42,655 nucleotides of DNA from positions 1 to 42,655 of the forward strand of contig JAKSKY010000007.1 in NCBI GenBank assembly GCA_024401515.1. Reading direction: 5' to 3'. Below are positions 11,745 through 26,460 of this stretch, piece after piece. This DNA comes from Paludibacteraceae bacterium. Its GTDB lineage: Bacteria; Bacteroidota; Bacteroidia; Bacteroidales; Paludibacteraceae. A model generated the notes under the pieces. The model ran no database searches. It had not been told where the DNA came from and was given only the letters and a program-made list of their open reading frames with translations. Both the position numbers and the translations under genes were made by a program. How positions within the stretch are numbered: the first letter of the stretch is position 1; every line of letters starts with the position of its first letter.

Positions 11745-11788
11745 TTGGCTCATCGGATGTTGGGTCTGATGAATAAATAATTTGTCGT

Positions 11789-12898
11789 ATGGACAATAAT
11801 TTGATTACAGTAACATCTCCGTTATTACCTGATTTGGAGGAGTTCCATGGCTTGTTGAAACAGATTTGGGACTCTAAATGGATAACCAACAACGGTTCAT
11901 TCCATAAGCAATTGGAGAGAGAGTTGGCGGATTATCTAAAAGTGCCCTATGTGAGCCTTTTCACCAATGGTACATTGCCGCTAATCACCGCATTGCAGGC
12001 TTTGAGAATTACGGGTGAGGTGATTACCACTCCCTATAGTTTCGTCGCCACCACACACGCCTTGTGGTGGAATGGAATCAAGCCCGTCTTTGTTGATATT
12101 GATATGCGTACAGGAAACCTTGATCCAGATAAGATTGAGGCCGCCATCACGCCAAAGACAACAGCGATTATGCCTGTCCACGTCTATGGAAAACCTTGTG
12201 ATACGAAACGTATTCAGGAAATCGCCGACCGTTACGGCCTAAAAGTAATCTATGATGCCGCACATGCCTTTGGTGTGGAGGTGAATGGTGAAAGTGTCTT
12301 GAATGCGGGCGATATGTCTACCTTGTCATTCCATGCCACCAAAGTCTATAATACCATAGAGGGTGGCGCAATGGTGATGCAGGATGAAAAGACCAAACAA
12401 CGTATCGATTATTTGAAGAATTTCGGCTTTGCGGGTGAGACTACCGTGGTTGGCCCTGGTATCAACTCCAAAATGGATGAAATCCGAGCGGCCTATGGTA
12501 TTTTGAACCTTCGTCAAGTGGATGATTGTATCGCTGCCCGTCAGAGAGTGGCGATTTATTATCGTGAGGCTTTGAAAAATGTGGAGGGTGTTAGTTTCTT
12601 TATGGATATGCCAGGGGTAAAACATAACTATTCCTATTTCCCAATCTTCATTGATGAGAAGAAATATGGAATGTCCCGTGATGAACTATACATGAAGATG
12701 AAGGCGGTCAATGTACTGGGTAGACGTTATTTCTATCCGTTGATCTCTGAATTCTCCACCTATAGGGGCTTGGAGTCCTCTAATCCGACCAATTTGCCTA
12801 ATGCGCATAAGATGGCGAACTCCGTTATCTGTTTGCCAATGCATCATGCATTGAGTGATTCAGACTTGCAGCGTATTGTTGAATTGATTATCAAGTGA
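11789..12898 (+). CDS. DegT/DnrJ/EryC1/StrS sugar aminotransferase
   Basis: This is a PLP-dependent nucleotide-sugar aminotransferase of 369 aa. The PLP lysine is K185 in FHATKVYNTIEGG. The cofactor-contacting Asp is in IYDAAHAFG (D156), and the substrate-loop sequence TTPYSFVATTHA lies at 80-91. The family converts keto-sugars such as dTDP-4-keto-6-deoxyhexoses into amino sugars. The opening WITNNGSFHKQLE resembles VioA/FdtB-type enzymes, but I cannot fix the position aminated. No dehydratase or thymidylyltransferase lies in the window, so the keto-sugar must be made elsewhere. Its product would offer a free amino group for acylation, which links it to the acyl cassette of module 2. Confidence 0.88.
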   Translation: MDNNLITVTSPLLPDLEEFHGLLKQIWDSKWITNNGSFHKQLERELADYLKVPYVSLFTNGTLPLITALQALRITGEVITTPYSFVATTHALWWNGIKPVFVDIDMRTGNLDPDKIEAAITPKTTAIMPVHVYGKPCDTKRIQEIADRYGLKVIYDAAHAFGVEVNGESVLNAGDMSTLSFHATKVYNTIEGGAMVMQDEKTKQRIDYLKNFGFAGETTVVGPGINSKMDEIRAAYGILNLRQVDDCIAARQRVAIYYREALKNVEGVSFFMDMPGVKHNYSYFPIFIDEKKYGMSRDELYMKMKAVNVLGRRYFYPLISEFSTYRGLESSNPTNLPNAHKMANSVICLPMHHALSDSDLQRIVELIIK

Positions 12899-12926
12899 TT
12901 ATTTTAGAACGTAGATCCAATTTGTA

Positions 12927-14024
12927 ATGGAAAATAATAAGGATATCTATTTCGCGCCGGTTATTATACCAACTCTTTGCCGTTCAAAATTCTTTATCAA
13001 TTTGGTGGAGAGCTTGAAGCGTAATACATGGGCTAAATATACAGATATTTACGTTGGTCTCGATTATCCACCATCTGAGAAATATAGACAAGGATGGCAA
13101 GAGATTTGTGATTATTTGGATAGCAGTGATTTTTCCGTATTCGCACATTTTGAAGTATTCAGAAGAACGGAGAATTTGGGTGGATTCCGCAATAATAATG
13201 AACTTACCAAGTATGTGATGGATAGGTATGAGTGCATGATCCGTGTGGATGATGACTTGGAATTTTCTCCCAATTTCTTGGAGTTTATGGATAAGTGTTT
13301 GTGGAAATACCGCGACGATAATGAGGTCCTCTTCGTTTCTGGCTATTCTTATCCTATGCCATGGAAGGTTGAAGAGGGCGCCACCTGCTTCCGTCAGAAT
13401 TTCAGCACCCCATCTTGGGGATTGGGTCTGTGGAAGAAAAAGCATCCGATTTATACCAACTATATCCGAAATGGACAAATGTTGAAGGATGCCGCTCAAT
13501 TCATCAAGGAGGGAAGAGAGGAGTTGATGTCATTGGCTACTTTCCGTTATTATTTCTTCGATGTGTTGTCCTTGAAGAGTAAATCTGGATTATACAATTT
13601 GAACACCGATGTCTCTTTGACAACTTATATGGCTTGTAAGGGTGGCTATTGCGTTACGCCAACACTCTCTAAGGTTAAGAATTTTGGTTGGGATGGATCC
13701 GGTGAATTTTGCCATGCCATAACGGGAGAGTTTGGTAACCACTCTTGCGATTACGACTATGCGCACCAGGAGATTGACACATCCGAAAGTTTTGAATTGA
13801 TCCCAGATGATAGCAAACGCTACATGAAGGAGAACCGCGACCTTTTGAGTGAATTCGAATATGATGACCATCCTGGTCCATTGAAAAGGATGGAGGTGGC
13901 GCAACATAGTTTTGCGTTGGTGAAACGATATGGAAGGCCGTTGGCGTTATTGATCCATCTCTTCGAGTATGGTTGGGCGAAAATCACGAAAAAGAATAGC
14001 GTGGATTTAGGATCATCCAAATAA
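12927..14024 (+). CDS. GT-A fold glycosyltransferase
   Basis: This is a 365-aa cytoplasmic or peripheral glycosyltransferase. The N-terminus VIIPTLCRSKFFINLVESL and the acidic metal-binding triad in MIRVDDDLEFSP (D108-D110) mark a GT-A fold. The middle segment TPSWGLGLWKKKH is reminiscent of GNT-I/GT2-like bacterial enzymes. No membrane segment is evident. It lies between the aminotransferase and the Wzy polymerase, so it most likely adds a sugar to the module 1 repeat unit. Donor and linkage are unknown. Confidence 0.75.
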   Translation: MENNKDIYFAPVIIPTLCRSKFFINLVESLKRNTWAKYTDIYVGLDYPPSEKYRQGWQEICDYLDSSDFSVFAHFEVFRRTENLGGFRNNNELTKYVMDRYECMIRVDDDLEFSPNFLEFMDKCLWKYRDDNEVLFVSGYSYPMPWKVEEGATCFRQNFSTPSWGLGLWKKKHPIYTNYIRNGQMLKDAAQFIKEGREELMSLATFRYYFFDVLSLKSKSGLYNLNTDVSLTTYMACKGGYCVTPTLSKVKNFGWDGSGEFCHAITGEFGNHSCDYDYAHQEIDTSESFELIPDDSKRYMKENRDLLSEFEYDDHPGPLKRMEVAQHSFALVKRYGRPLALLIHLFEYGWAKITKKNSVDLGSSK

Positions 14025-14038
14025 ATACAAAGCATTTT

Positions 14039-15145
14039 ATGTTTTTAGCATTCTATGTATATCTTTTGCTCTTGCTGGTAATGGTCTATTTTGGCTACCA
14101 GTACAGCAAAACCAATAAAAACGCATACGCCTATATTGTCATCGGCGTATTTACGTTTGTCATTGGTTTGCGGTATGGGGTCGGGGACGATTATATGGCT
14201 TATATGAATTACTATTTCAAGCCAGAGCTCTTCCCTAAAATGGAGTGGGGATATACGTATATCAACAAAATATTCAGGGAACTCGATTTCCATTATTGTA
14301 CCATCTTCCTTTTGGGCGCTTTCTTGGAAATCTATTTCTTCACGCGCGCTTTTAAGAATTTTAAATTCATCTTGCCGCTCGCATATCTCTTCCTCTTTAC
14401 GACTTTGGAGTTGTTCATCTGGGATAATACAGTCAGACAAAGTTTGGCATTTTGCGTATTCTTGTGTTCCATCCAATATGTACAAGAGAAGAAGTTGATT
14501 CCTTTTGTAATCTTAATTTTGATTGGAGCGGCTTTCCATAAAACCGCCTATCCTTTGTTGGCCTTCTATTTTGTGCTTCGATTCCATGCGAAAGACGATA
14601 GATGGTTCCAATACATGATGTTGCTAGGTACATTTGCCGCTGGAGCGGTTTTAAAAGTATTCCTACTTACTTATATGACCAAAATCGCCCTTATGGTGGG
14701 CATTGGTGGTTCTGCTGGTAATGCAGAGTTCCTTCAGTCGGTTGACTGGTCAAATGGCAAAAATTCCTTAGGTTTGGCCACTTTAATATGGTTAGCGATC
14801 GATATGTTTTGCGTATGGCTTTATCCTGCTTTGAAGAAAAAATACAAGGAGGTTGGCTTTGAAAAATATTACTTTTTGTACTTCTGTGGTATCTTGATGC
14901 AAAATTGCGTGGGTGGTACCTATTTGGACCGTGTGAATATGTACTTCCTACCATTCCGTATTGTCATCTATTCATTCTGTGTGTATGAGATGGCCAAGAA
15001 GCGGAATGTATTCTACAAGATCCCAATTATGATGTTTTGTGGCTTGACATTCGCCTTGTTCTTGTGGGCGATCAGTAAAAAGGCGGGAACCTGCGCACCA
15101 TATGAATTTGTTGAGTTAGGATTCTTCCCTGATATATTTGATTAA
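14039..15145 (+). CDS. EpsG/Wzy-like polysaccharide polymerase
   Basis: This is a very hydrophobic 368-aa protein with about ten predicted membrane segments. It has the EpsG-type signature RYGVGDDYMAYMNYY from R45, followed by an EWGYTYIN-like loop (MEWGYTYINKIF). EpsG-family proteins polymerise lipid-linked repeat units in the periplasm. It is the only Wzy-like protein I see in the window, although there are three flippases. It is embedded among glycosyltransferases with short gaps on both sides, consistent with one operon. Confidence 0.82.
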   Translation: MFLAFYVYLLLLLVMVYFGYQYSKTNKNAYAYIVIGVFTFVIGLRYGVGDDYMAYMNYYFKPELFPKMEWGYTYINKIFRELDFHYCTIFLLGAFLEIYFFTRAFKNFKFILPLAYLFLFTTLELFIWDNTVRQSLAFCVFLCSIQYVQEKKLIPFVILILIGAAFHKTAYPLLAFYFVLRFHAKDDRWFQYMMLLGTFAAGAVLKVFLLTYMTKIALMVGIGGSAGNAEFLQSVDWSNGKNSLGLATLIWLAIDMFCVWLYPALKKKYKEVGFEKYYFLYFCGILMQNCVGGTYLDRVNMYFLPFRIVIYSFCVYEMAKKRNVFYKIPIMMFCGLTFALFLWAISKKAGTCAPYEFVELGFFPDIFD

Positions 15146-15158
15146 TAAATAAGAGATT

Positions 15159-16103
15159 ATGTTTCTATCGATTATAGTCCCATCCTACAATGTGGAGCAA
15201 TATGTGGAAGATTGCTTGAAGAGTTGTGTGGCTCAGAATATCAGCCATGATGACTATGAAATCATTGTCATCAATGATGGGTCCAAGGACAATACATTGG
15301 ATGTGATCAATGGTTTCGTCTCCGAACGACAAACCCACAATATTAAGGTTTTTTCCCATGATAACCAGGGATTGAGCGCCACCCGTAACAGAGGTCTCTC
15401 CTTGGCTGAAGGTGATTACATCTGGTTCGTCGATAGCGATGATTGGATGGCGGAAAACATTCTGGACGGACTTCGTCTTTTTGTTGAGAAACATAACCAA
15501 CCCGATGTGGTGGTATTGAATACCATTATGAAAAGGGAGGGTGTCGCGGAAGAGGAGTTGGTGGACAGACGATTGGTACAGGAGTCTTGTGACGGTGCGT
15601 TCGTTTATCAGAATTCCTACATATATCCTTATAGCGGTGCGCAATTTTACCTATTCAAACGTGACTATTTGCTAACGCATGGTTTGTCATTCAAGCCGGG
15701 CATCTATTTCGAGGATTGCCTTTTCACACCCTCCGTTCTTAGCCAAACGGACCATTGCGCCTACTATTCCACGCCGGCCTATTATTATCGTCTACGGGCC
15801 AATTCCATCACGACCTCTTCGATCACTGAGAAGAAATTGTATGATTCCATCACAGTGGCAGAGGAGTTAAAGGCGAAAATAGATGATGAGCGTACGAAAT
15901 ATCCAAACATTCTCAAAGATGCGATTTGCAGAACCTATGAGGTGTTGTTCAGATATTATATCTTGAAATCGGCTCCTGATGTGCAAAAGAAATTTTTGAA
16001 ATTGTTGAACAGCAACGACAATTGGAAATCGATGAAGGGTATAAGCTTAAAACACAAGGTTTACTACTATATCATGAGAGTCTATGCTCTCATAAAAGGA
16101 TAA
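15159..16103 (+). CDS. GT2 glycosyltransferase
   Basis: This 314-aa protein has the family 2 core: SIIVPSYNVEQYVEDCL at the N-terminus, INDGSKDNT (38-46), and the metal-binding FVDSDDWM with D92-D95. The C-terminal part is helical and ends in a basic, amphipathic segment that may touch the membrane. It starts 13 nt after the polymerase gene. It adds a sugar to a lipid-linked intermediate; the specificity is not evident. Confidence 0.9.
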   Translation: MFLSIIVPSYNVEQYVEDCLKSCVAQNISHDDYEIIVINDGSKDNTLDVINGFVSERQTHNIKVFSHDNQGLSATRNRGLSLAEGDYIWFVDSDDWMAENILDGLRLFVEKHNQPDVVVLNTIMKREGVAEEELVDRRLVQESCDGAFVYQNSYIYPYSGAQFYLFKRDYLLTHGLSFKPGIYFEDCLFTPSVLSQTDHCAYYSTPAYYYRLRANSITTSSITEKKLYDSITVAEELKAKIDDERTKYPNILKDAICRTYEVLFRYYILKSAPDVQKKFLKLLNSNDNWKSMKGISLKHKVYYYIMRVYALIKG

Positions 16104-16122
16104 TATCTAAGATAGGCTCAGT

Positions 16123-17205
16123 ATGAAGATTGTAGCATTCCACTTGTTCAACGATTATTCTGGCAGCCCAAAGGTGCTGAAAATGGTCTTGGAGGGCCTT
16201 TTGAAACAGGATTACCAGATAGAAGTGGTTACCTCCAAGGGTGGAGTATTGGACGAATTAAAGTCGGACAATGTCCGTCATCATCACTATAGCTATCATT
16301 TCTCGATGAATCCGGTGGTGACGATGATTCGATACACGTTTGCGCAGCTCTATACATTCTTCTTCGCATTCCGTTATATTTTCAAAAAGGATGTGGTCTT
16401 TTATATTAACACGATTTTGCCTGTAGGGCCTGCGTTGGCCGGCCGTTTGATGGGTAAACGTGTTGTCTATCATTATCACGAGAATGCTTATGCGAAGAGT
16501 GGGTTTTATAGCGCATTAGCCAATATCATGCAGAAAATCGCTACCGATATCATGTGTGTCTCCGCTTTCCAGCGAGGATATATCAAGCGTGAAAAAAATG
16601 TGACGGTTGTGCCTAACGCTTTGTCCACCTCCTTCACGGAGATGATGTCCTGCGATGCGGATCGATCATATGGATATCAAACGGTTTTGATGGTCGCCTC
16701 CTTGAAGAAATACAAGGGAATCATGCAGTTCTTTGAACTTGCCTCTCGATTGCCGCAATATCAATTTGTGGTGGTTGTGAATGATGATCAGCGCACCATC
16801 GATGAGTTTGTGAAGACCGAGGGAATAACCCTTACCGAAAACCTTACCATCTATCCACGTCAGGAACGTGTCGCTCCTTTTTACCAAAAGGCTTCCATGG
16901 TTTTAAATTTGTCAGATACCAGCATGGTGCTCGAAACATTTGGTTTGACCGCATTGGAGGCGATGTCCGCGGGGTTACCTGTGATTGTTCCTACCAAGGG
17001 TGGTGTGGCGGAATTGGTGGAGGATGGTATCCATGGTTATAAGATCGATGTGAGCCAATTGGATCAAATTGAGCAAAAGATAAGCGAAATTTTGGGCAAC
17101 AAGTCCCTTTACGAGGCGATGTCCCATTCCGCCTATGAGAAGTCAAAAGAATATTCAGAGGATAAGATCATTCGAATGGTCACCTCTATCCTAGATAGAC
17201 AATAA
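16123..17205 (+). CDS. GT4 glycosyltransferase
   Basis: This is a GT-B fold glycosyltransferase of 360 aa. The retaining GT4 signature E-x7-E is clear: E271 and E279 in ETFGLTALEAMSAGLPVIVP, followed by TKGGVAELV. The N-terminal acceptor domain has FNDYSGSPKVL. It follows the GT2 gene by 19 nt. It would transfer a sugar from an activated donor to the growing oligosaccharide at the cytoplasmic membrane. Confidence 0.9.
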   Translation: MKIVAFHLFNDYSGSPKVLKMVLEGLLKQDYQIEVVTSKGGVLDELKSDNVRHHHYSYHFSMNPVVTMIRYTFAQLYTFFFAFRYIFKKDVVFYINTILPVGPALAGRLMGKRVVYHYHENAYAKSGFYSALANIMQKIATDIMCVSAFQRGYIKREKNVTVVPNALSTSFTEMMSCDADRSYGYQTVLMVASLKKYKGIMQFFELASRLPQYQFVVVVNDDQRTIDEFVKTEGITLTENLTIYPRQERVAPFYQKASMVLNLSDTSMVLETFGLTALEAMSAGLPVIVPTKGGVAELVEDGIHGYKIDVSQLDQIEQKISEILGNKSLYEAMSHSAYEKSKEYSEDKIIRMVTSILDRQ

Positions 17206-17237
17206 AAGAAAAATATATAAGGGAGGAAAGTTTAAAG

Positions 17238-18302
17238 ATGAAACAGGTCGCGATTGTGGGATGCCAAGGAATTCCCGCTAAGTATGGAGGCTTTGAGTCT
17301 TTGGTGGAGAATATTGTCGGAGAGAACGCATCGGCGAATATTCATTACACTGTATTTTGTAGTGGCGTAGATATGCCGGGAAAGATTCATGAATACAAAG
17401 GCTGTACTTTGAAGTACGTGGATATGAAGGCCAATGGTATTCAAAGTATTATGTACGATATTCTTTGCATGATGCGTACATTCAGAGGGTATGATACCGT
17501 ATTGGTTTTAGGTGTGTCAGGCTGTATGTTCTTGCCATTTTTGAAATGGTTTAGCAAGAACCGTCTTGTGGTGAATATAGATGGTTTGGAACATCGACGC
17601 GCGAAGTGGGGTAAGGTAGCCCGTTGGATTCTTCGTACCTCGGAGAAGATGGCTGTCAAGTTTGCTGATGTGGTCATTGCCGACAACAAGGGTATCCAAG
17701 ATTATGTCACTGAGACCTATCAAAAACCATCTGAACTGATCGCTTATGGAGGAGACCATGTGATCCGTCAGATTGAGGAGGAGAAGGTTCAGCAAGTCCT
17801 TGCCGATTATGGTTTGAAAAAGGACAACTATGCGGTTTGTGTCTGCAGAATTGAGCCAGAGAACAACTGCCACATCACCTTGGAGGCCTTCTCCAAGACC
17901 GATAAGGAGTTGGTTTTCATCGGTAACTGGGGACACAGCGATTACGCGAGAAGTTTGAAGAAACAATATCAGGATTTTCCTAATATCCATATTTTGGATG
18001 CCATCTATGATTTGGATATCCTCTACATCATCCGTTCCAATGCGGCCACCTATGTGCATGGACACAGTGCGGGTGGAACCAACCCTTCCTTGGTGGAGGC
18101 GATGTTTTTCGGAATGCCTATTTTGGCCTTCGATTGCGTTTACAACCGCGCTTCAACCAATGAGAAGGCCTATTACTTCTCCGATGTTGAGAGTATGCAT
18201 AGACTATTGGAGCAAGAGTTGAATGGTGAGGAGATGCGTGTAATTGCGGAGCAACAATATACGTGGAAAAAAATTGCCCAACAATACGAGGCGACTTATT
18301 AG
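17238..18302 (+). CDS. DUF1972-domain glycosyltransferase
   Basis: The 354-aa protein starts with the hallmark of the DUF1972 family, VAIVGCQGIPAKYGGFESL, and has a GT4-like C-terminal half with HSAGGTNPSLVEAM (about 275-289). Family members are often annotated as rhamnosyltransferases, but donor specificity is not established by sequence. A purine-rich GGGAGGAAAG lies 8-17 nt before the ATG, stronger than the starts of its neighbours. It is the last gene of module 1, followed by a 200-bp gap and the UpxY gene. Confidence 0.88.
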   Translation: MKQVAIVGCQGIPAKYGGFESLVENIVGENASANIHYTVFCSGVDMPGKIHEYKGCTLKYVDMKANGIQSIMYDILCMMRTFRGYDTVLVLGVSGCMFLPFLKWFSKNRLVVNIDGLEHRRAKWGKVARWILRTSEKMAVKFADVVIADNKGIQDYVTETYQKPSELIAYGGDHVIRQIEEEKVQQVLADYGLKKDNYAVCVCRIEPENNCHITLEAFSKTDKELVFIGNWGHSDYARSLKKQYQDFPNIHILDAIYDLDILYIIRSNAATYVHGHSAGGTNPSLVEAMFFGMPILAFDCVYNRASTNEKAYYFSDVESMHRLLEQELNGEEMRVIAEQQYTWKKIAQQYEATY

Positions 18303-18454: not shown

Positions 18455-18503
18455 TCGAAGTAAGGGAGTCGTTTCTCTCTGCCATTTGTTTACTTTAAAC
18501 CAT

Positions 18504-19037
18504 ATGAAGTTGGACAAAAGCTTTGGCTGGTATGCTCTGAATGTGTTTTTTAATCGCGTGTCGAAATTGTCGACATTGCTCGATTCGGAAGAGATGGAGT
18601 ACTACGTGCCGATGCGGACAGTGGAACTTTTCAAGAATGGGGAGAAAACCTACGAAAAACGTCAGTTAATCGCATCATTATTGTTCTTGAGATGCACCTC
18701 TTCCTATTTTGATGGCTTGAAAGAGCGTTTTGGTGATTCTTTTTACGTCTATGCGGATCGTGAAACCAAAAAGCCGAGAAGGATTCCGGACCATGAGATG
18801 AACTCTTTTATGCTAGTCACTTCGGTCGAAGATATAGGTATGGAGTTACTACCGCAAGGGGAGTGTAATTACACGATAGGAGATCATGTTAAAGTTGTGG
18901 AAGGTTTGTTCAAAGGAGCGGAAGGTTACATTAAACGAATTCAAGGAAGAAAGAGATTGATAGTCTCTATCGAAGGAATCGCAGTGGTAGCAACCTCCTA
19001 CATTCCACGTTCGTATTTGGAAATAATTGAAGATTGA
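18504..19037 (+). CDS. UpxY-family transcription antiterminator (NusG paralogue)
   Basis: The open frame extends upstream to a TTG, but the ATG at 18504 gives a 177-aa protein beginning MKLDKSFGWYALNVFFNRV, the usual UpxY start. The NGN domain covers about residues 8-110, and a KOW motif follows in GDHVKVVEGLFKGAEGYI. UpxY proteins are NusG homologues that bind the elongating polymerase and let it read through the long leader of their own polysaccharide operon in Bacteroides. They are normally the first gene of a locus. Here it precedes the second WecA by 20 nt and marks the start of module 2. No UpxZ partner is visible. Confidence 0.9.
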   Translation: MKLDKSFGWYALNVFFNRVSKLSTLLDSEEMEYYVPMRTVELFKNGEKTYEKRQLIASLLFLRCTSSYFDGLKERFGDSFYVYADRETKKPRRIPDHEMNSFMLVTSVEDIGMELLPQGECNYTIGDHVKVVEGLFKGAEGYIKRIQGRKRLIVSIEGIAVVATSYIPRSYLEIIED

Positions 19038-19057
19038 TTGTCAAATAATTATTATGT

Positions 19058-20206
19058 ATGTCTGATTTTTTTGTTACCATGTCAGAGGCCTCTTTTTGGA
19101 GGTTTTCTATGATTGCCGTATTGGTGATGGCAATTATCGCTGCGGGTGTCTTGATTCCCCAGATTTTGTTGATCGCCTTCAGAAAAAAATTGTTTGACGA
19201 GCCTGATGAGCGTAAGATTCATCACAGTACCGTTCCCCGTTTGGGTGGATTGGCTTTCGAACCGGTGATTTTGTTTACGATCTTCATCATGCTTGTATTT
19301 GATGTGCATGCGGGTCAAGCCCGTCTTACGAGCGCTTTGGGCGCCAATGTGTTGCCATTGTCCATCTGTATCTGTTCGCTGATTCTGCTCTATTTGGTGG
19401 GTATCGCGGATGATTTGATCGGTGTGAAATATAGCGCGAAGTTTGTGGTTCAAGTGGCATGTGGCCTTCTGTTCCTATTTGGTGGCTTGTATTTGAACAA
19501 TCTTCATGGCATATTTTTCTTGCACGAACTGCCAAAGTTTTTGTTTTGGCCGTTGACCGTTGTGATGGTGGTCTTTATCATCAATGCCATGAACCTCATC
19601 GACGGTATTGATGGTTTGGCTTCCGGATTGAGCGGTGTCGCCTTGACCTATTATGGCTGCGTGTTTTTCAATTTACATGACTATACCTTCGCCTTGGTCG
19701 CATTCGCTACTTTGGGAACTGTAATTCCGTTCTTCTATTACAATGTATTTGGAAAGGCGGAGAAGCAACGCAAGATTTTCATGGGTGATACTGGTTCTTT
19801 GACCATTGGACTTATCCTTTGTTTCCTTAGTTTCCGTATGGCGAATGTGCAGGTAAGTGCCGGCTCTCCATGTTTGGCGGATATTAATCCACTCTTCTTG
19901 GCCTTCAGTCCATTGTTTGTGCCTTGTTTGGATGTGGTACGTGTCTTTATGCACCGTATTCGTAAGGGCAATAGTCCATTCTTGCCGGATAAGAGTCATA
20001 TCCACCACAAATTGTTGAATTTGGGTATGTCCCAACATGCTGCGATGATTACCATCCTCAGCTGTTCCGCCCTTAACATCGCATTGTGTGTGGTCTTGTC
20101 CAAATATGTTCATCCTACCTTGTTGTTTCTAGGCTGTTTGGTTTTGTTCACTGCCCTCAACATTTGGATGACACACAAGATCCATCAAAAGAATATCGAA
20201 TATTAA
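19058..20206 (+). CDS. WecA-like undecaprenyl-phosphate sugar-1-P transferase (copy 2)
   Basis: This is a 382-aa paralogue of the protein at 6612 with every family motif intact (DEPDERKIHHSTVPRLGG, GIADD, NAMNLIDGIDGLASG, GDTGSL, HIHHKL). Differences cluster in the first 20 residues, in the loop around residues 260-278 (VQVSAGSPCLADINP in place of the copy 1 sequence), and near the C-terminus. Both copies should therefore be active and probably use the same or similar donors. An ATG 4 nt upstream is out of frame; the start at 19058 is chosen to match copy 1. It is first after UpxY and 18 nt before the second Wza. Confidence 0.92.
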   Translation: MSDFFVTMSEASFWRFSMIAVLVMAIIAAGVLIPQILLIAFRKKLFDEPDERKIHHSTVPRLGGLAFEPVILFTIFIMLVFDVHAGQARLTSALGANVLPLSICICSLILLYLVGIADDLIGVKYSAKFVVQVACGLLFLFGGLYLNNLHGIFFLHELPKFLFWPLTVVMVVFIINAMNLIDGIDGLASGLSGVALTYYGCVFFNLHDYTFALVAFATLGTVIPFFYYNVFGKAEKQRKIFMGDTGSLTIGLILCFLSFRMANVQVSAGSPCLADINPLFLAFSPLFVPCLDVVRVFMHRIRKGNSPFLPDKSHIHHKLLNLGMSQHAAMITILSCSALNIALCVVLSKYVHPTLLFLGCLVLFTALNIWMTHKIHQKNIEY

Positions 20207-20224
20207 GAAACGCGAAATAGATTT

Positions 20225-21055
20225 ATGAGAAATATAAAATTGTTATTGGCTGCCATGGTGGCTTGTATGATGATGGGCTCTTGCTCTTCATACAAGAAGA
20301 TCCCTTACTTCCAGGATGCTGATCAGGTGAAAGGAATCAATACCGCCGCGGTTCAAGAGATAACGATTCGTCCGAAAGATAGGATCTCCATTGTGGTCAA
20401 CTGTAAGGATCCAATGATTTCCGCTCTTTTCAACCTTCCATATGTGACGCAACGAGTAGTGAGCACTGGTGCGAAAAATACATTGTATGGCGAGGAGTCA
20501 AGCGCGGTGTCGGGTTACACGGTCGATAGCGATGGAAACATCGATTTCCCTACCATCGGTAAGATTAATGTGGCTGGTTTGACTAGAAATGAGTTGGCCG
20601 CTTTGATTAAAGATGAGATTGAAGCGCGTAACCAGGCGAAGGATCCTGTTGTCACTGTCGACTTCCTGAATCTAAGCGTAACCGTGATGGGCGAGGTTGC
20701 CAATCCAGGCATTTATCGTATATACAAGGATAATATCACCCTTTTGGAGGCCATCGGCGGCGCTGGTGACATCACTGTTCAGGGAAAACGTGATAATGTC
20801 TTGGTGTTACGAATGGAGGATGGTAAGCAAAAGTCTTACCGTGTGAACATGACCTCATTGCAAAATGTGGTGCAATCCCCAGTGTTCTATTTGCAACAAG
20901 ATGATATCGTCTATGTGGAGCCTAATAAGATGAAGGCTAAACAATCCACAGTCAATGGAAACACGGTCCGTTCCGCATCCTTTTGGATTTCATTATCCTC
21001 TTTGGCCACTACGGTCGCCACACTTGTCTTGAATCAGAAAAACAGGTCTAAATAA
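20225..21055 (+). CDS. Wza-like polysaccharide export lipoprotein (copy 2)
   Basis: This is a 276-aa lipoprotein with a signal peptide ending in MMMGSC (C20). The Poly_export and SLBB domains are almost identical to the copy at 7780; most changes are in the signal peptide and the last 20 residues. At DNA level the two copies differ at many third codon positions, so the similarity is kept by selection rather than by recent duplication. Unlike copies 1 and 3 it is not followed by a wzc gene. It must rely on a Wzc from another module if it is functional. Confidence 0.92.
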   Translation: MRNIKLLLAAMVACMMMGSCSSYKKIPYFQDADQVKGINTAAVQEITIRPKDRISIVVNCKDPMISALFNLPYVTQRVVSTGAKNTLYGEESSAVSGYTVDSDGNIDFPTIGKINVAGLTRNELAALIKDEIEARNQAKDPVVTVDFLNLSVTVMGEVANPGIYRIYKDNITLLEAIGGAGDITVQGKRDNVLVLRMEDGKQKSYRVNMTSLQNVVQSPVFYLQQDDIVYVEPNKMKAKQSTVNGNTVRSASFWISLSSLATTVATLVLNQKNRSK

Positions 21056-21090
21056 TCAATCAAGCCAGAAATAGGGAAGTACTTGGATTT

Positions 21091-21726
21091 ATGAAGAATA
21101 TAATAATCATAGGCGCTAGGGGGTTCGGTCGTGAATGTTTCGATTTGTTCAAACACAAAAAGGGACAATATTTCAAATACCGTATCAAGGGATTTTTGGA
21201 TGATAAAGCCGATGCTTTGGATGGCTTGAAGGGGTATCCTCCTATTTTAGGGGCTGTCGAGACCTATGAAATACAAAAGAATGATGTATTCTTCTGTGCC
21301 TTAGGTGATCCGGTGTATCGTAAAAAATATGCTGAAATAATTTTGAATAAGGGCGGAGAGTTTATATCTTGCATAAGCGACTACGCTTTGATCAATCCGA
21401 CCGCCCATTTAGGTAAGGGTGTCTTTGTCGGTGCCTATGCGATTATATCGGCGGAAGTGAAGGTGGAGGACTTTTCCGTTATCCACCCGTTCTGTAACAT
21501 CGGACACGACGCTACGATCGGTTCTTACAGCGAAGTGGAGGCCTATGTGGCAATGGGCGGCTCTTCGCAAGTGGGAGAACAGGCGACTATCCATCCGCAT
21601 GCCTCAATATTACCTCGTGTGAAGGTGGGCAAGAACGCGACGGTGGGAGCGGGTAGTGTAGTCCTTAAAAATGTAAAGGAGGGGAGTACCGTGTTTGGTG
21701 TTCCCGCAAAAGTTGTAGATTTTTAA
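21091..21726 (+). CDS. NeuD/PglD-like left-handed beta-helix acyltransferase
   Basis: The 211-aa protein has the two-part layout of sugar O- or N-acetyltransferases of the NeuD/PglD family. An N-terminal Rossmann-like nucleotide-sugar domain carries IIIIGARGFGRE (8-13 core), and a left-handed beta-helix of hexapeptide repeats spans about 100-205. The catalytic base is likely H139 in CNIGHDATIG, matching the active His of PglD. The family transfers acetyl, or sometimes longer acyl groups, to amino sugars or sialic acids. Its position directly before an ACP and condensing enzymes suggests the donor may be an acyl-ACP; that is inference. Confidence 0.85.
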   Translation: MKNIIIIGARGFGRECFDLFKHKKGQYFKYRIKGFLDDKADALDGLKGYPPILGAVETYEIQKNDVFFCALGDPVYRKKYAEIILNKGGEFISCISDYALINPTAHLGKGVFVGAYAIISAEVKVEDFSVIHPFCNIGHDATIGSYSEVEAYVAMGGSSQVGEQATIHPHASILPRVKVGKNATVGAGSVVLKNVKEGSTVFGVPAKVVDF

Positions 21727-21742
21727 TTAATATATAGTGATT

Positions 21743-21979
21743 ATGAAAACATTAGACGAATTTGTAGCTCTTTTCGCTGAGCAATTGGATGATACAGATC
21801 CATCTACAGTAACTGCACAAACCAAGATCCGTGATTTGGAGGAGTGGTCATCTCTTTTGGCTTTGTCTTTGATTTCAATGGTTGATGAGGAGTTCGGTAT
21901 CGCTTTGAAGGGTGATGATGTGAAGAATTCCGAGACGATCGAGGACGTTTATAACGTGATTAAGGCTAAGCTACAATAA
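21743..21979 (+). CDS. Acyl carrier protein
   Basis: This is a small acidic protein of 78 aa from the ATG at 21743; an upstream in-frame GTG at 21737 is less likely. The sequence around EEWSSLLALSLISMVDEEFGI aligns with the phosphopantetheine site of ACPs, with S37 as the attachment serine and the usual preceding Asp replaced by Ser. The remaining helices fit the ACP fold. The stop codon overlaps the ATG of the next KASIII gene by one base (TAATG), pointing to tight coupling. It would hold acyl chains for the KASIII, SDR and acyltransferase encoded beside it. It is a pathway-specific ACP rather than the housekeeping one, judging by context. Confidence 0.87.
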   Translation: MKTLDEFVALFAEQLDDTDPSTVTAQTKIRDLEEWSSLLALSLISMVDEEFGIALKGDDVKNSETIEDVYNVIKAKLQ

Positions 21980-23055
21980 TGGCATTTTTCGAATTTAAGA
22001 ATGTAAGGCTTGCTGGAATCGCCGCTGGTGTTCCTAGCTTTATCGCCAATAATCTTCATCCATTGCCAGAGGATGCGGTATCATCCGACTATTCTCCCGA
22101 GGATTTCGTGAAAACGACTGGTGTTTTGGAACGTCGCATCACCTATACGCAAACCACTTCGGATTTGTGTTACCATGCGACCCAAAAACTCTTGTCCGAT
22201 TTGAACTGGAAAAAGGAGGAGGTCGATGCCATTATTTTCGTATCCCAATCCAGGGACTATAACGCTCCCTCCACGGCTGGTATACTCCAAAACCGATTGG
22301 GGATGTCAACCGACACCTATTGCATCGATTTGACTTTGGGTTGTTCCGGATGGGTATATGGATTGAACACCGTTGCCTCATTGCTCTCTTCCGGTTGTAT
22401 GAAGAAAGCTTTGTTGATGGCTGGAGACTCCAAAGCGGTACGTCCGATGCAGTTGTCTCCACTTTTCGGCCATGCGGGAACCGTAACAGCCGTAGAGTAC
22501 AAAGAGGGCGAAAAAGGGTTCTGTTTCCATTGTGGAACGGATGGTAGTGGCTATGACGCTATTATCATTCCTGATGGAGGTTCAAGAAACCTCACATCTC
22601 CCAACTCCTTTGTTTTTGAGGATTGTGAAGATGGCCATAAGAGCAGGATGGAATCCAGAATGAAAGGTATGGATGTCTTTTCATTCGGTATCACCACCGC
22701 ACCGAAATCGGTGAAGAAATTGGCTGAACATTTTGAATTCGACTATTTGAGTTACGATTACCTTATGTTGCATCAAGCCAATATGGCGATGAACAACATG
22801 ATTGCCAAGAAGTTGAAATTCACACCGGAGAAAGTTCCGTCTTGTATGCACCATTTTGGAAACACATCGTCGGCTTCCATTCCTTTGACCATCGCGACAG
22901 AGTTGAAGGGAAAGGTGGGTGCGGAACCTAAGCATTTTATCTGCTGTGGTTTTGGTGTGGGTCTCTCATGGGCCACTGTCGCGTTCACCACGGAGAATTT
23001 CATCATCTCAGATCTTGTCGAGGTGGATGAGAATGGCAATGTCGTCCATTCATAA
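21979..23055 (+). CDS. KASIII (FabH-like) condensing enzyme with full triad
   Basis: This 358-aa thiolase-fold protein belongs to the ketoacyl-ACP synthase III family. The catalytic triad is complete: C122 in LGCSGWVYGL, H265 in MLHQANMAM, and N295 in FGNTSSASIP. It should be able to load an acyl group on the cysteine and condense it with a malonyl thioester, giving a 3-ketoacyl-ACP. FabH relatives in secondary pathways may also transfer acyl groups to other acceptors. It overlaps the ACP gene by one base and is followed 28 nt later by a second KASIII, so the three are probably co-expressed. Starter and product are not evident. Confidence 0.92.
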   Translation: MAFFEFKNVRLAGIAAGVPSFIANNLHPLPEDAVSSDYSPEDFVKTTGVLERRITYTQTTSDLCYHATQKLLSDLNWKKEEVDAIIFVSQSRDYNAPSTAGILQNRLGMSTDTYCIDLTLGCSGWVYGLNTVASLLSSGCMKKALLMAGDSKAVRPMQLSPLFGHAGTVTAVEYKEGEKGFCFHCGTDGSGYDAIIIPDGGSRNLTSPNSFVFEDCEDGHKSRMESRMKGMDVFSFGITTAPKSVKKLAEHFEFDYLSYDYLMLHQANMAMNNMIAKKLKFTPEKVPSCMHHFGNTSSASIPLTIATELKGKVGAEPKHFICCGFGVGLSWATVAFTTENFIISDLVEVDENGNVVHS

Positions 23056-23083
23056 TTTGTAAACTAATTTGAACTAAACATAT

Positions 23084-24166
23084 ATGTCGTTCATAGAGAT
23101 AAAGGATGTCAGAATCGCTGGTATATCCACTGCGGTACCTGCAAGGGTAGTGGACAATACCAAGGTTTCGTCCACCGTAGGAAATGATGCGGAATCCGTA
23201 CAGGATTTTGTGAAGCGAGTTGGAATCTTCGAGAGAAGGGAGAGCCTTCAATTGACAGCTGCCGATCTATCTTGTGAGGCATGCGAGCGACTCATTGCTG
23301 ATTTGGGCTGGGAGAAAGAGTCCATCGAGGCGATTCTTGCGGTGACCATTACACCAGATTATCCCTTGCCGGTTAATGCCTGCATGATCCAAGACCGTCT
23401 TGGCTTGAGCAAAGAGTGTTATGCCCAGGATATCTCTATGGGATGCTCCGGTTGGGTCTATGGTCTTAGCGCTGTAGCCTCTCTCCTTGGCAGTGGAAAC
23501 ATCAAACGCGCGATCATGGTGACGGGTGAATCCAAGATGCATTGGGGAAAGGGTGTCAACGATTTGACGTTGGGTCATGCCGTTTCCGCCACCGCTGTCG
23601 AATATATGCCAGGTGCGGATTCTTTGAAGTTCCATTTTGGAACCGACGGAAGCGGTGCCGACTCTATGATTTTACCTAAGAGTGGTGTGCGTAACATGCA
23701 CTATTCCGACGAAGAGATCAAACTTTTGGAAAATAAGGAATTGCAACGTTCCATGGAGGTGGAGATGAATAGCGAGGAGATGGCTCAATTCGCCATCAAT
23801 CGTGTTCCACAAACCATCCAAGCTTTGTCTGACCGTTATGGCATCGACTACAAAGGCTGCGATTACCTTGTGCTCAATCAGTCTAACCAACAGATTACCG
23901 ACCAATTGGTGAAGAAGTTGGGTGTAGATCCCGCCAAAGCCATCTCATCATTGCGTAAATTCGGCAATACACTATCCGCATCGATCCCAGTTACGATCAC
24001 CACGCAGCTCAAGGGGATGATAGAAAACAAGAAAACGCAATTTGTCGCTTGCGGTTATGGAATTGGCCTCTCATGGGGAAGTGTCGCTTTCTCAACAGAG
24101 AATATCGTGATATCAGACCTTGTAGAGGTTCCGGAAAATAGATTTGAAGATTTAAAATGGGAATAA
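23084..24166 (+). CDS. KASIII-like protein with catalytic His replaced by Asn
   Basis: The 360-aa paralogue of the preceding KASIII aligns with it almost without gaps. The nucleophile C121 (MGCSGWVYGL) and N295 (FGNTLSASIP) are kept, but the position of the catalytic His reads N265 in LVLNQSNQQ; the codon is AAT at 23876-23878. In FabH the His is needed for decarboxylative condensation. The protein may therefore be an acyltransferase, a partner subunit, or an enzyme with altered chemistry. It is otherwise intact and of full length, which argues against a decaying gene. It overlaps the SDR start by one base if the SDR begins at 24166. Confidence 0.9.
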   Translation: MSFIEIKDVRIAGISTAVPARVVDNTKVSSTVGNDAESVQDFVKRVGIFERRESLQLTAADLSCEACERLIADLGWEKESIEAILAVTITPDYPLPVNACMIQDRLGLSKECYAQDISMGCSGWVYGLSAVASLLGSGNIKRAIMVTGESKMHWGKGVNDLTLGHAVSATAVEYMPGADSLKFHFGTDGSGADSMILPKSGVRNMHYSDEEIKLLENKELQRSMEVEMNSEEMAQFAINRVPQTIQALSDRYGIDYKGCDYLVLNQSNQQITDQLVKKLGVDPAKAISSLRKFGNTLSASIPVTITTQLKGMIENKKTQFVACGYGIGLSWGSVAFSTENIVISDLVEVPENRFEDLKWE

Positions 24167-24918
24167 TGAATAATCCATTCTCCCTAGAGGGAAAAACAAT
24201 ATTAGTGACAGGTGCCTCTTCTGGTATCGGTCAAGGTTGTGCGGTGATGGCCGCGCAAATGGGTGCGAAAGTGATTGTCTCAGGACGAAACGAAGAGCGC
24301 CTACAAGAGACTTTGAAACAATTGCAAGGTGAGGGACACACCACATTCGCTGGCGATTTGACCGATGCCGCTGTGATCGAGAAGATGGTTGGCGAAGTGC
24401 CCGCTTTGGATGGCGTAGTGTTCTCCGCTGGTATCTCCATGACCGCTCCCTTTGCTTTCACGACACGTGAAAAGTTCGACAAGGTCTTTAATGTGAATTT
24501 TTTCTCACCCATTGAATTGCTTCGTTTACTTGTGAAGAAGAAGAAATTGGTCAATGGTTCTTCCGTCGTATTCATCTCCTCTGTGGGCGGTAATTTCGGA
24601 TTCTCTGTCGGTAATGGCGCATATGGCGCATCCAAGGCCGCGTTGAATTCCATGTCACGCCTTTGCAGTTTGGAGTTGGCTCCTAAGAAGATTCGTGTCA
24701 ACGCGATCTGTCCTGGTATGGTGGAGACGCCGTTGGTACAAGGATTTTCACAGAATATTACCGAAGAGGAGAAGCAAAGGGATATTGATTTCTATCCATT
24801 GAAAAGATACGGAAAACCCGAAGATATCGCTGGCGGTGTAGTTTATCTATTGTCTGAAGCGGCCTCTTGGGTGACAGGCCAAGCCATCTGCATCGATGGC
24901 GGTATCACCGCTTACTAA
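24166..24918 (+). CDS. SDR oxidoreductase, FabG-like
   Basis: This is a 250-aa short-chain dehydrogenase/reductase from the ATG at 24166; another in-frame ATG at 24157 would lengthen the overlap with the KASIII gene. The cofactor motif TGASSGIG lies at 15-22. The catalytic YxxxK is Y153-GAS-K157, the Ser is in VVFISSVGG, and the C-terminal CPGMVETPL and ITGQ-like VTGQAICIDGG are typical of FabG-type ketoreductases. In this setting it would reduce a 3-ketoacyl-ACP made by the KASIII to a 3-hydroxyacyl-ACP. Action on a keto-sugar is an alternative I cannot exclude. Confidence 0.88.
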   Translation: MNNPFSLEGKTILVTGASSGIGQGCAVMAAQMGAKVIVSGRNEERLQETLKQLQGEGHTTFAGDLTDAAVIEKMVGEVPALDGVVFSAGISMTAPFAFTTREKFDKVFNVNFFSPIELLRLLVKKKKLVNGSSVVFISSVGGNFGFSVGNGAYGASKAALNSMSRLCSLELAPKKIRVNAICPGMVETPLVQGFSQNITEEEKQRDIDFYPLKRYGKPEDIAGGVVYLLSEAASWVTGQAICIDGGITAY

Positions 24919-24936
24919 TAATAAAAAAATATCACA

Positions 24937-24970
24937 TAATAGAGGCGCCTCTTTTCAGGTGTCTCTATTA
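24937..24970. repeat. Long imperfect hairpin between SDR and flippase genes
   Basis: A 14-bp stem (24937-24950 with 24957-24970, two G-U pairs) encloses the 6-nt loop CTTTTC. On the plus strand no T-run follows. On the minus strand it is followed by a run of T (the A-run at 24923-24929), so it is not an ordinary plus-strand terminator. A 10-bp palindrome TAGATATCTA lies just downstream at 24976-24985. It may attenuate or process the transcript between the acyl cassette and the flippase. Confidence 0.5.
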
Positions 24971-24993
24971 TTGTGTAGATATCTATACAATTT

Positions 24994-26460
24994 ATGGCAG
25001 AAGAATCGTTGCAGCACAAAACGAAGATGGGACTCCTGTGGAGTGCCTTCGAACGCTTTGGTACCCAAGGAATATCGGCCCTATTCGCTATCTTTTTGGC
25101 GAGATTACTCTCCCCGGAAGATTACGGTTTGGTGGCGATGCCCATGGTCTTCATGTGCTTGGCGCAATGCTTCATCGATAGTGGATTCGCCTCGGCATTG
25201 GTGCGCAAGCCCGATTTGAAGGAGGAGGATATTGTCACGGCTTTCTATTTCAATGTCGTGATGGGTATCGTATGCTATTTGATACTCTTCTTCGCCTCTC
25301 CATTCGTCGCTGATTTCTATCATGCGCCTGAATTGTCGAAACTATTGAAAGTCTCTGCGCTCAGTTTGTTGATCGGTTCCTTCGGAACGGTTCAGCAAGC
25401 GCTTTTAACCAAATCGATCGATTTTAAGCGTCAAGCCAAAATCTCCCTTTGCGCCTCACTGCTCAGTGGCGCCATCGCGATCACTTTAGCCCTAAACGGG
25501 TGGGGCGTGTGGGCTTTGATCTTCCAAGCGGTTTGTGGACAAATCGTACGTACCATACTTCTTTGGATCACCAGTCAATGGCGTCCTCATGGAGCGTGGT
25601 CGGCCAGTTCATTCCACTATTTGTGGAATTTTGGTAGCAAGATGCTGGCCTCCGCAGTGTTGGATACCATCTACAACAATATCTATCCAATCGTCATTGG
25701 AAAATTCTTCAACAAGAAGGATTTGGGAAATTTCGTCAACGCCAACAATTTGGCCTCTTTGCCCTCCAGCAATTTGACCGGTGTCTTGCAGCGTGTCACC
25801 TTCCCCGTGTTAAGTTCCATCCAAGATGACGATGCCCGATTGGCCACCAGTTACAGAAAACTGTTGCGTTTATCCGCCTTCTTGATATTCCCTTTGATGG
25901 TGGGCCTTTCCGCCGCGGCACGTCCCTTTATCCTTACCTTGATCGGAGAAAAGTGGGAGGGAAGTATCGTCCTTTTGCAGTTGGCCTGTTTCTACATGAT
26001 GTTCTATCCCATCCATGCGATCAATTTGAACCTATTGGAGGTGAAAGGACGTTCCGATCTATTCCTACGTTTGGAGATTATCAAAAAGGTGCTAGGTGCC
26101 ATTGTGATGGCCTTGGCCATTCCGCACGGAATCATTTGCATGATGGCGAGTGGTATCGTCTCCTCTTTGTTAGCATTGGTAATTAATACCTACTACACGG
26201 GTGTGCTGATCAATGTGGGCTTTTTCAAGCAAGTTTTGGACCTTCTGCCTATCTTTTGCGTGAGTATGGTGATGTGGGGCGCCATCATGTTGTTCAATTA
26301 CTATGTGGATTTGGATATCATGGCCCTTCTGTTGGTGGTGGACATTGTGATTGGTGTGACCCTATATTTGCTTCTATCCAAAATCTTTCTGAAGAAAGAG
26401 ACCAGCGAGGTGTTGGAGATGATGCCGGAGAAGATCAAGAGCAAAATGAAGTGGTTGTAG
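24994..26460 (+). CDS. Wzx-like flippase (MOP superfamily), copy 1
   Basis: This is a polytopic protein of 488 aa with about 12-14 hydrophobic segments. The N-terminus, KMGLLWSAFERFGTQGISAL followed by FLARLLSPEDYGLVAM, is characteristic of the WzxC/PST branch. It would move lipid-linked repeat units across the inner membrane. It ends module 2, 75 nt after the SDR gene. It is only distantly related to the other two flippases in the window, which resemble each other more closely. Confidence 0.9.
   Translation: MAEESLQHKTKMGLLWSAFERFGTQGISALFAIFLARLLSPEDYGLVAMPMVFMCLAQCFIDSGFASALVRKPDLKEEDIVTAFYFNVVMGIVCYLILFFASPFVADFYHAPELSKLLKVSALSLLIGSFGTVQQALLTKSIDFKRQAKISLCASLLSGAIAITLALNGWGVWALIFQAVCGQIVRTILLWITSQWRPHGAWSASSFHYLWNFGSKMLASAVLDTIYNNIYPIVIGKFFNKKDLGNFVNANNLASLPSSNLTGVLQRVTFPVLSSIQDDDARLATSYRKLLRLSAFLIFPLMVGLSAAARPFILTLIGEKWEGSIVLLQLACFYMMFYPIHAINLNLLEVKGRSDLFLRLEIIKKVLGAIVMALAIPHGIICMMASGIVSSLLALVINTYYTGVLINVGFFKQVLDLLPIFCVSMVMWGAIMLFNYYVDLDIMALLLVVDIVIGVTLYLLLSKIFLKKETSEVLEMMPEKIKSKMKWL

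Follow-up and report, generated by a model that had tools for sequence, protein, structure and literature searches.

A KASIII paralogue without its catalytic histidine in a probable glycan-acylation cassette of a Paludibacteraceae bacterium

The systems closest to the gene set considered here have been described in Pseudomonas and Flavobacterium. In the available part of the report on Pseudomonas syringae pv. tabaci 6605 (PMC3927599), a viosamine island holds vioA, vioB, vioS, vioR and acp, and by mass spectrometry the flagellin glycan of vioA, vioB and vioR mutants was without its modified viosamine, which is a 3-hydroxy-1-oxobutyl amide. In Flavobacterium psychrophilum, NMR revealed an N-linked 3,5-dihydroxyhexanoyl group, and wfpC-wfpG have been proposed to make it (Cisar et al. 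2019, PMC6519341, available in part); a preliminary description of the present DNA had drawn on a dihydroxyhexanoyl group on an amino sugar of the F. psychrophilum O-polysaccharide, which agrees with that NMR structure. A more distant likeness is to PqsBC of Pseudomonas aeruginosa, in which, as far as the available text goes, one of two FabH-like subunits lacks the full catalytic triad (PMC4807248). The accessible part of a paper on Aeromonas flagellin glycosylation (PMC7874193) mentions an ACP and a reductase and no KASIII. A literature search by title, with most subscription papers outside it, found no paper on such a cassette in Bacteroidales.

The DNA analysed here (the window, 42,655 nucleotides) is from a Paludibacteraceae bacterium, of a rumen-associated group. 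Five genes stand in a row on the plus strand between wza and wzx: neuD (21091-21726), for a left-handed beta-helix acyltransferase of the NeuD/PglD/VioB family (TIGR03570), a predicted N-acyltransferase; acp (21743-21979, with an ATG start and an in-frame GTG at 21737), for an acyl carrier protein (PF00550); kas1 (21979-23055), for a KASIII with its Cys-His-Asn triad intact (PF08541/PF08545); kas2 (23084-24166), for a KASIII paralogue of KAS1 that has Asn in place of the catalytic His; and sdr (24166-24918, with an ATG start and another in-frame ATG at 24157), for a FabG-like SDR (adh_short_C2), a predicted 3-oxoacyl-ACP reductase. ORF positions and domain matches confirm the five adjacent plus-strand genes of the families first assigned, together with the one-base overlaps claimed for acp and kas1 (at 21979) and for kas2 and sdr (at 24166). 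The row is headed by the gene for a UpxY-family antiterminator (18486-19037, plus strand; NF033644, 127.1 bits against a cut-off of 100), and the cassette is followed, here as in the genus, by that for a Wzx-type flippase (24994-26460, plus strand; Polysacc_synt_3). The predicted source of the amine, a DegT-family sugar aminotransferase (11789-12898, plus strand; PF01041, 338.1 bits), is encoded in the neighbouring row ahead of upxY, about 8 kb upstream of the cassette, and the initiating enzymes of the window are WecA-like (PF00953). An invertible promoter was sought close to where the gene rows begin, and only short inverted repeats were found; promoter- and terminator-like sites are at the shuffled level.

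The cassette is probably a dedicated glycan-acylation pathway, all of its reactions, the sugar and the chain being predicted. The ACP would carry the growing short chain, KAS1 would condense malonyl-ACP with an acyl primer that is probably acetyl-CoA, and the SDR would reduce the 3-oxo to a 3-hydroxy group. From ACP the NeuD/VioB-like enzyme would pass the hydroxyacyl group on to the amine at position 4 of a dTDP-4-amino-4,6-dideoxyhexose, which would itself come from dTDP-glucose via RmlB and the DegT encoded at 11789, and the acylated sugar would join the repeat unit for export by the Wzx encoded at 24994. Across the genus the second KASIII may permit a further round of elongation, like that suggested for the F. 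psychrophilum 3,5-dihydroxyhexanoyl group. The catalytic His being absent from the window KAS2, the likeliest product here would be 3-hydroxybutanoyl; should KAS2 act solely as a partner of KAS1, a longer chain might result.

The pathway, of which donor chain length and final linkage had been put forward as possibly new, is of a known kind, with both the viosamine island and wfpC-G, so far as their reports were available, as precedents. The P. syringae island as there described shares five functions with the window (sugar aminotransferase, VioB of 213 aa, KASIII, 3-oxoacyl-ACP reductase of 253 aa and ACP), and its acceptor is a dTDP sugar, as proposed here; 4-aminotransferase, NeuD/VioB, ACP, KASIII and reductase, the viosamine-type set, do lie close together in the window. 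However, the island has one KASIII and serves a flagellin glycan, whereas the polysaccharide locus of the window is of the UpxY type and has two. Among the window ORFs scanned no vioM-like methyltransferase was found. F. psychrophilum, from the same partial source as above, shares two KASs, ACP, reductase and a PglD-like acyltransferase within a polysaccharide locus. Its acceptor is UDP-Qui2NAc4N, from PglF/PglE and with a PglC-like transferase, whereas a dTDP sugar is proposed for the window, which has no PF02719 match, one DegT and, among the ORFs scanned, no match to PF02397 (PglC-like). Nor does the window have two KASs with intact triads, as would be expected of a two-KAS pathway of the wfp type, its KAS2 reading C-N-N. 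The second KAS of F. psychrophilum is probably of another KASIII branch, to judge by the KAS-ACP-KAS-SDR order that it shares with loci L125-L127. The wfp and vio genes were compared by function and order, and the likeness is of that kind.

A housekeeping role for the cassette KASIIIs was rejected, as the genome carries a separate FabH, on contig C83. KAS1 shares fold family and Cys-His-Asn with housekeeping FabH, but it scores 143.5 bits against the fabH model, whose cut-off is 292.1, and both cassette KASs reach about half of that cut-off. KAS1 has the motifs GCSGW, HQAN and FGNTS. KAS2, 43% identical to KAS1, has both Pfam KASIII domains and keeps Cys and Asn, and the codon for the catalytic His is replaced by AAT (23876-23878), for Asn. 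Of the two KASIII proteins claimed, both are present, but the second, without the catalytic His, is not simply countable as a second condensing enzyme, and condensation by the window KAS2 itself is doubtful.

Among the KASIIIs compared, the departure is peculiar to the window. The KAS alignment (203 rows, or 198 once identical ones were merged) excluded ORFs of 300 aa or less and the L145 and L146 copies, which repeat genus contigs; L033-L035 were the only ones of loci L007-L035 to be included directly, the rest being in a 39-row motif comparison. Among the matches listed, the triad is C-H-N in 197 of the 198 aligned KASIIIs and C-N-N in the window KAS2 alone. The other eight KAS2s of the genus are C-H-N, and in the motif comparison 38 of 39 sequences read HQ-N, with NQSN in the window KAS2. 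(YQAN in L152 and other odd KAS motifs were pattern-match artefacts, gone on alignment.) At 28 conserved columns, set from the other 197 sequences, the window KAS2 departs at five (H265N, A267S, F234A, G230S and F325Y), the most of any of the 198 among the matches listed. KAS2 is a paralogue of KAS1 that evolves fast: in all three close pairs it shows about double the dN of KAS1, with dN/dS at 0.06-0.12, so that in those pairs it is still under selection. Against the nearest relative dS is saturated, and constraint on the branch of the window KAS2 is therefore unmeasurable. In a tree of 85 of the 198 rows, used to ask whether the second KASs form a single family, a clade of genus KAS2 and branch B was rejected (AU p 0.012, for a group named post hoc); a clade uniting branches A and B was not (p 0.39).

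That the window KAS2 is simply failing, the second elongation being lost and the one-round product being 3-hydroxybutanoyl, is a serious possibility, if short of probable. The His is lost along with four further conserved residues, a hydroxybutanoyl sugar is made with one KASIII in P. syringae (PMC3927599, available part), and single-KAS cassettes exist, at the five Flavobacterium-genus loci read (L249-L253) out of 54 matching genomes. However, the kas2 ORF has neither stop nor frameshift, its product retains Cys and Asn, the gene still lies between kas1 and sdr, and the saturated dS gives no measure of constraint on its branch. The intact ORF also fits the more tentative idea that KAS2 has become a non-condensing partner in a KAS1-KAS2 heterodimer, shaping the acyl pocket or serving acyl transfer only. 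It adjoins KAS1 as its paralogue, and it has changed fast, to the extent of five of the 28 conserved columns in the window, while dN/dS stays low in the close pairs. PqsBC, in the available part of PMC4807248, gives a precedent for a FabH-like heterodimer and for a catalytic His that is dispensable for the acyl-enzyme; by the same partial source, PqsB has lost all three triad residues, whereas KAS2 has lost His only, and PqsBC condenses with 2-aminobenzoylacetate, not malonyl-ACP. As the other eight genus KAS2s keep His, a partner role would be either peculiar to the window genome or older than the loss. Both these readings of KAS2 lie within the glycan-acylation explanation, and the likelihoods given to them do not sum to one.

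The neuD product scores 177.3 bits against TIGR03570 (NeuD/PglB/VioB), above the cut-off of 160.8, and PF17836 (PglD_N) and PF00132 (hexapeptide repeats) are also above cut-off, which places it in the family. Among PDB sequence matches its nearest solved structure is VioB 7txp (E 1.4e-19), the other best ones being perosamine N-acetyltransferase 4ea7 and the PglD-type 2npo/2vhe/3bss; gene neighbourhood alone suggests that its acyl donor is acyl-ACP and not acetyl-CoA. The ACP reads EEWSSL, with the Asp of the usual DSL replaced by Ser and the phosphopantetheine Ser kept; attachment is predicted. EWSSL is present in all nine genus copies and, among the matches listed, every one of the 96 aligned rows has the Ser, with WSSL the commonest motif (34 of 96). 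The SDR is 85-90% identical to those of eight genus relatives. For DegT, the best NCBIfam model is PLP_DesI, at 306.5 bits far below its cut-off of 650, and the best PDB match is 2po3 (E 5.1e-70). This DegT occurs in 13 of 16 genus genomes; RmlB is in all 13 of these and in one of the three others. RmlB makes the substrate expected for DegT, dTDP-4-keto-6-deoxyglucose, and its use by DegT is predicted.

Within the genus the row neuD-acp-kas1-kas2-sdr-wzx is kept in all eight related loci, with wzx adjoining sdr, the UpxY gene in the same place and DegT upstream in each; the recurrence is more than chance and answers in the affirmative the synteny with sugar aminotransferases proposed as a check. 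A close NeuD relative (E up to 1e-20) occurs in exactly the nine of 16 genus genomes that have the KAS pair. The preliminary description had named absence of the block from other aminotransferase loci as grounds for refutation: it is absent from four of the 13 degT-bearing genomes and present in nine. The DegTs of those four lie in a different locus, so the link between DegT and cassette is limited, not broken. A Wzx relative (46-49% identical) stands directly before degT in three of the four cassette-less loci, and a 74-aa Wzx piece (41% over 64 aa) is found in the fourth.

More widely, scanning with an alignment of KAS1 types yielded 80 named loci, the best of 584, weaker relatives being missing and many flanks incomplete. 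Near the KAS1 type these best 80 have ACP in 78, SDR in 77, a second KAS in 63, NeuD in 49 and DegT in 39; among the 50 of them with full flanks the counts are 50, 50, 48, 35 and 27. A single-protein KAS2 scan of genome contigs gave no confirmed match. NeuD was found in 16 of 20 phylum loci read (from 21 other genomes matched, with G474 left out). Among Bacteroidota, those of gut and rumen groups included, the combination of ACP, KAS, SDR and NeuD is widespread. Of the 32 loci, among the best 80 of 584, with both a NeuD and a DegT, 31 have the two types in agreement: both are window-like in 19 and neither is in 12 (Fisher p 5.8e-8, or 9.6e-6 with ten Flavobacterium loci counted once, the thresholds in either case set post hoc). 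In seven of these best 80 the window-type degT overlaps, or ends within 40 bp of, the window-type neuD. By NeuD and DegT type the loci appear to fall into two acceptor classes. Comparison supports the route first put forward, from hydroxyacyl-ACP through NeuD to the amine that the DegT encoded at 11789 would supply, both in the agreement of types and in the upstream DegT of the genus loci. Points counted on the other side were the place of DegT in another row, its score under the DesI cut-off, the four cassette-less degT genomes, the KAS1-type loci without NeuD, the missing His of KAS2 and the three other DegTs of the window genome (this contig has one only).

The same comparison bears on whether the acceptor is instead UDP-Qui2NAc4N, the PglF/PglE product, with the DegT at 11789 serving another sugar and other enzymes. 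This is unlikely: the five loci read of that acceptor kind have NeuDs 25-29% identical to that of the window (one DegT scanned from them is LegC-like), whereas with the 19 NeuDs paired with window-type DegT among the matches listed the window NeuD shares 45-52% identity. UDP-Qui2NAc4N is the acceptor in F. psychrophilum (PMC6519341, available part), a long PF02719 frame (642-655 aa) lies elsewhere in 14 of 16 genus genomes and other DegTs are in all 16, but this contig has no PF02719 match, and the sole one in the window genome, which is 88% complete, is a 344-aa frame on contig C57. After degT, seven of the eight cassette-bearing relatives have a 402-aa gene (three) or a 241-aa gene (four), of ATP-grasp and WbqC size class; one scanned of each was ATP-grasp and WbqC-like respectively. 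Such a gene, not found in the window or in G008, the eighth relative, might itself acylate the amine, a point for the UDP-Qui2NAc4N reading and against the main one.

An assembly error, with KAS2 an ordinary KASIII, is quite improbable. The sequence comes from one metagenome-type assembly, no second genome of the species being among the 16 of the genus, and relative to these the first-base changes in the codons for residues 265 and 267 are C-to-A and G-to-T, the kind of change given by oxidised DNA. However, two nearby residues have changed, and the Ser codon also has a third base unlike that of the Ala codons in relatives. KAS2 departs at three more conserved positions as well. Very improbable is a free small molecule or lipid as the product: a polyketide-like pathway could use ACP, KAS and SDR by themselves, and the available stretch of 31 of the best 80 of 584 loci holds no NeuD, but the cassette sits between wza and wzx, a sugar N-acyltransferase is kept in all nine cassette-bearing genus genomes and NeuD is near in 35 of the 50 full-flank loci.

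The pathway is thus known in kind from other bacteria, and what is novel here is a second KASIII without a catalytic residue kept by the relatives compared. A wider and speculative proposal is that KAS2 is a His-less partner, the KASIII counterpart of a chain-length factor, and that DegT and NeuD stay together whereas the second KASIII is exchanged between several branches, which would make it the variable part that determines the acyl chain of the glycan. Acyl groups on amino sugars alter the antigenicity of surface glycans, as described for the F. psychrophilum R-group genes (PMC6519341), and such genes have been tied to structure there and in P. syringae (PMC3927599), both papers being available in part. 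The NeuD/DegT classes, together with second KASs from different branches, may allow a testable guess of sugar and chain from sequence, for which the window, with the same cassette and a second enzyme without its catalytic His, would be a natural test case.

From 6612 to its end the window, a complete contig (C132) of a Bacteroidota assembly of 2.70 Mb in 164 contigs (88% complete), carries for the most part polysaccharide genes. A first unit (6612–18302) reads wecA-wza-wzc-cpsB-degT-gt-epsG-gt-gt-gt and a second (18486–26460) upxY-wecA-wza-neuD-acp-kas1-kas2-sdr-wzx, while a third, with wza and wzc first, starts at 26840. The five adjacent plus strand genes of the preliminary description, neuD (21091–21726), acp (21743–21979), kas1 (21979–23055), kas2 (23084–24166) and sdr (24166–24918), were recovered on ORF checking of the window, and the one-base overlaps it had claimed for acp/kas1 and kas2/sdr are both borne out by their coordinates. 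Both wecA and wza are present twice (6612–8622 and 19058–21055; the copies are 86% and 90% identical). As wecA is likewise doubled in seven of eight related loci, with one copy heading each unit, the duplication seems to be a conserved trait and not an assembly fault. Within the third unit is an AMP-binding acyl-CoA ligase-like protein of 549 aa (34997–36646), a relative of which (35%) lies near a KAS cassette in the locus L054. The regions 37614–39452 and 41035–42192 draw attention for a protein of 612 aa, which combines 4Fe-4S and FrhB/FdhB domains with a hexapeptide-repeat end and is encoded close to a flippase gene and a gene for a polysaccharide pyruvyl transferase.

That KAS1 and KAS2, the KASIII proteins of the cassette, serve as the housekeeping FabH is ruled out: their scores are about half of the fabH curated cut-off, and a separate FabH above that cut-off is encoded on another contig of the genome (G000:C83). 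The cassette ACP is among five ACP-like matches in the genome. Its motif is EWSSL in all nine genus copies, with the phosphopantetheine Ser retained and the preceding Asp of the usual motif replaced by Ser.

In a genus sample of 16 genomes, the window's own counted, the KAS pair is present in nine, a close neuD relative in exactly those nine, and degT in the nine and four more. The order neuD-acp-kas1-kas2-sdr-wzx is identical in all eight other cassette-bearing genomes, and in all eight degT is upstream at the same position, its product 86–92% identical to that of the window. Though degT (11789–12898) and the cassette stand in two gene rows, a further feature ties them together. No flippase is found among the genes of unit one, in the window or in the eight related genus loci, and the Wzx after the cassette (24994–26460) would fill this gap. 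A relative of that Wzx (46–49%) is directly before degT in three of the four cassette-less degT loci, and a 74-aa piece of one is there in the fourth. Counting against the tie is another gene immediately after degT in seven of the eight relatives (402 aa in three, 241 aa in four), absent from the window and from G008, another cassette-bearing genome. The example scanned of each size, an ATP-grasp protein (L060, 13073–14281) and a WbqC-like protein (L061, 13802–14527), might be an alternative acylator of the same amine.

DegT is closest to DesI-type 4-aminotransferases: PLP_DesI is its best NCBIfam model (306.5 bits, under the cut-off of 650), and its best PDB sequence match is 2po3, an entry labelled 4-dehydrase and also named DesI. 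For NeuD, the closest PDB entry is VioB (7txp), followed by perosamine N-acetyltransferase and then PglD-type enzymes. RmlB, whose product is dTDP-4-keto-6-deoxyglucose, is in all 13 degT-bearing genus genomes versus one of three without degT, and in the four cassette-less degT-bearing genomes it is a few kb before degT on the same contig. In a wide scan, 32 of 80 named loci, the best of 584, hold both NeuD and DegT. With window-like cut-offs chosen after the values were seen (NeuD at least 40%, DegT at least 38%), both are window-like in 19, neither in 12, and one locus is discordant (L182: NeuD 37%, DegT 62%). The association gives a Fisher p of 5.8e-8 over the 32 loci with kinship ignored, and of 9.6e-6 with ten Flavobacterium loci collapsed to one and shared descent otherwise ignored. 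In seven of the best 80 of 584 loci, from records titled Fibrobacter, Paludibacteraceae, Phocaeicola and unclassified Bacteroidales, a window-type degT overlaps neuD or ends within 40 bp of it. This pairing of types and contact of genes is the best evidence, at the level of sequence, that DegT makes an amine which NeuD would acylate.

KAS2 is 43% identical to KAS1 and falls within the KAS1-type clade (27 rows, 99% SH-aLRT; clade names were picked with the data in view), most other second KASs being on different branches. Forcing the genus KAS2 together with one of these, branch B, changes the fit by −71 log units (AU p 0.012). Outside the genus its top match is 40% identical (101 genomes, first search). 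In every genus pair KAS2 identity is below that of KAS1 (54–76% versus 77–92%, three close pairs excluded). In the three close pairs, where dN is 0.023 vs 0.009, 0.043 vs 0.022 and 0.025 vs 0.014, KAS2 evolves faster than KAS1 yet stays constrained (dN/dS 0.06–0.12). In the window, from the single assembly of the species, its catalytic His codon is AAT (23876–23878) versus CAT/CAC in eight relatives. Cys-His-Asn is kept in 197 of 198 distinct aligned KASIIIs, and Cys-Asn-Asn occurs in window KAS2 only; it also deviates at five of 28 columns 95% conserved in the other 197, the most of any row (the next has four). The catalytic His of FabH acts in decarboxylation of malonyl-ACP. For PqsBC, the His is described as dispensable for acyl-enzyme formation (PMC4807248). 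By analogy with these two enzymes, window KAS2 may still take up an acyl group and should be poor at condensation by itself.

A KAS1 relative (E ≤1e-55) is present in 22 of 395 sampled phylum genomes, the window's included. Twenty of the 21 others were examined, and NeuD is near in 16 of the 20 loci; in two, L140 and L142, both NeuD and SDR are missing from the neighbourhood. Near KAS1 in the best 80 of 584 loci are ACP (78 loci), SDR (77), a second KAS (63), NeuD (49) and DegT (39); for the 50 of these 80 with full flanks the counts are 50, 50, 48, 35 and 27. By record title 70 of the best 80 are Bacteroidota, and the other ten are metagenome or uncultured records, for which misbinning is possible. 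An additional gene of about 360 aa is within the row in three Flavobacterium-like loci (L128–L130); that of L128 (10204–11289), the one scanned, is a Rieske oxygenase, which suggests an oxygen-dependent extra hydroxylation of the acyl chain. Five loci of the genus Flavobacterium (L249–L253) have one KAS, in the order ACP-KAS-SDR-NeuD-DegT and then a frame of about 658 aa, and are a natural counterpart of the loci with two, so that the cassette exists in both forms. In L250, the sole one scanned, DegT is LegC-like and the frame PseB/FnlA-like, i.e. PglE- and PglF-like. L177 has two ACP-KAS-SDR sets with NeuD in between, plus DegT, all in one locus.

Two precedents place the cassette in an already known kind of pathway. 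Work on the Pseudomonas syringae viosamine island lists vioA, vioB, vioS, vioR and acp, reports that vioA, vioB or vioR mutants have flagellin without modified viosamine, and gives that sugar a 3-hydroxy-1-oxobutyl amide (PMC3927599). In Flavobacterium psychrophilum, wfpC-wfpG encode two KASs, an ACP, a reductase and a PglD homolog, proposed makers of an NMR-detected 3,5-dihydroxyhexanoyl amide (PMC6519341). Compared with them by gene function and order, the window stands apart in joining a VioA/VioB-like sugar half to two KASs, and in having as its second KAS a KAS1 paralogue without the His. Most likely KAS1, SDR and ACP would yield 3-hydroxybutanoyl-ACP, from which the NeuD-like enzyme would transfer the acyl group to a dTDP-4-amino-4,6-dideoxyhexose. 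In the eight other genus members KAS2 could perform a second elongation round, as proposed for F. psychrophilum; in the organism of the window that round may have been lost, or KAS2 may act as a partner of KAS1.
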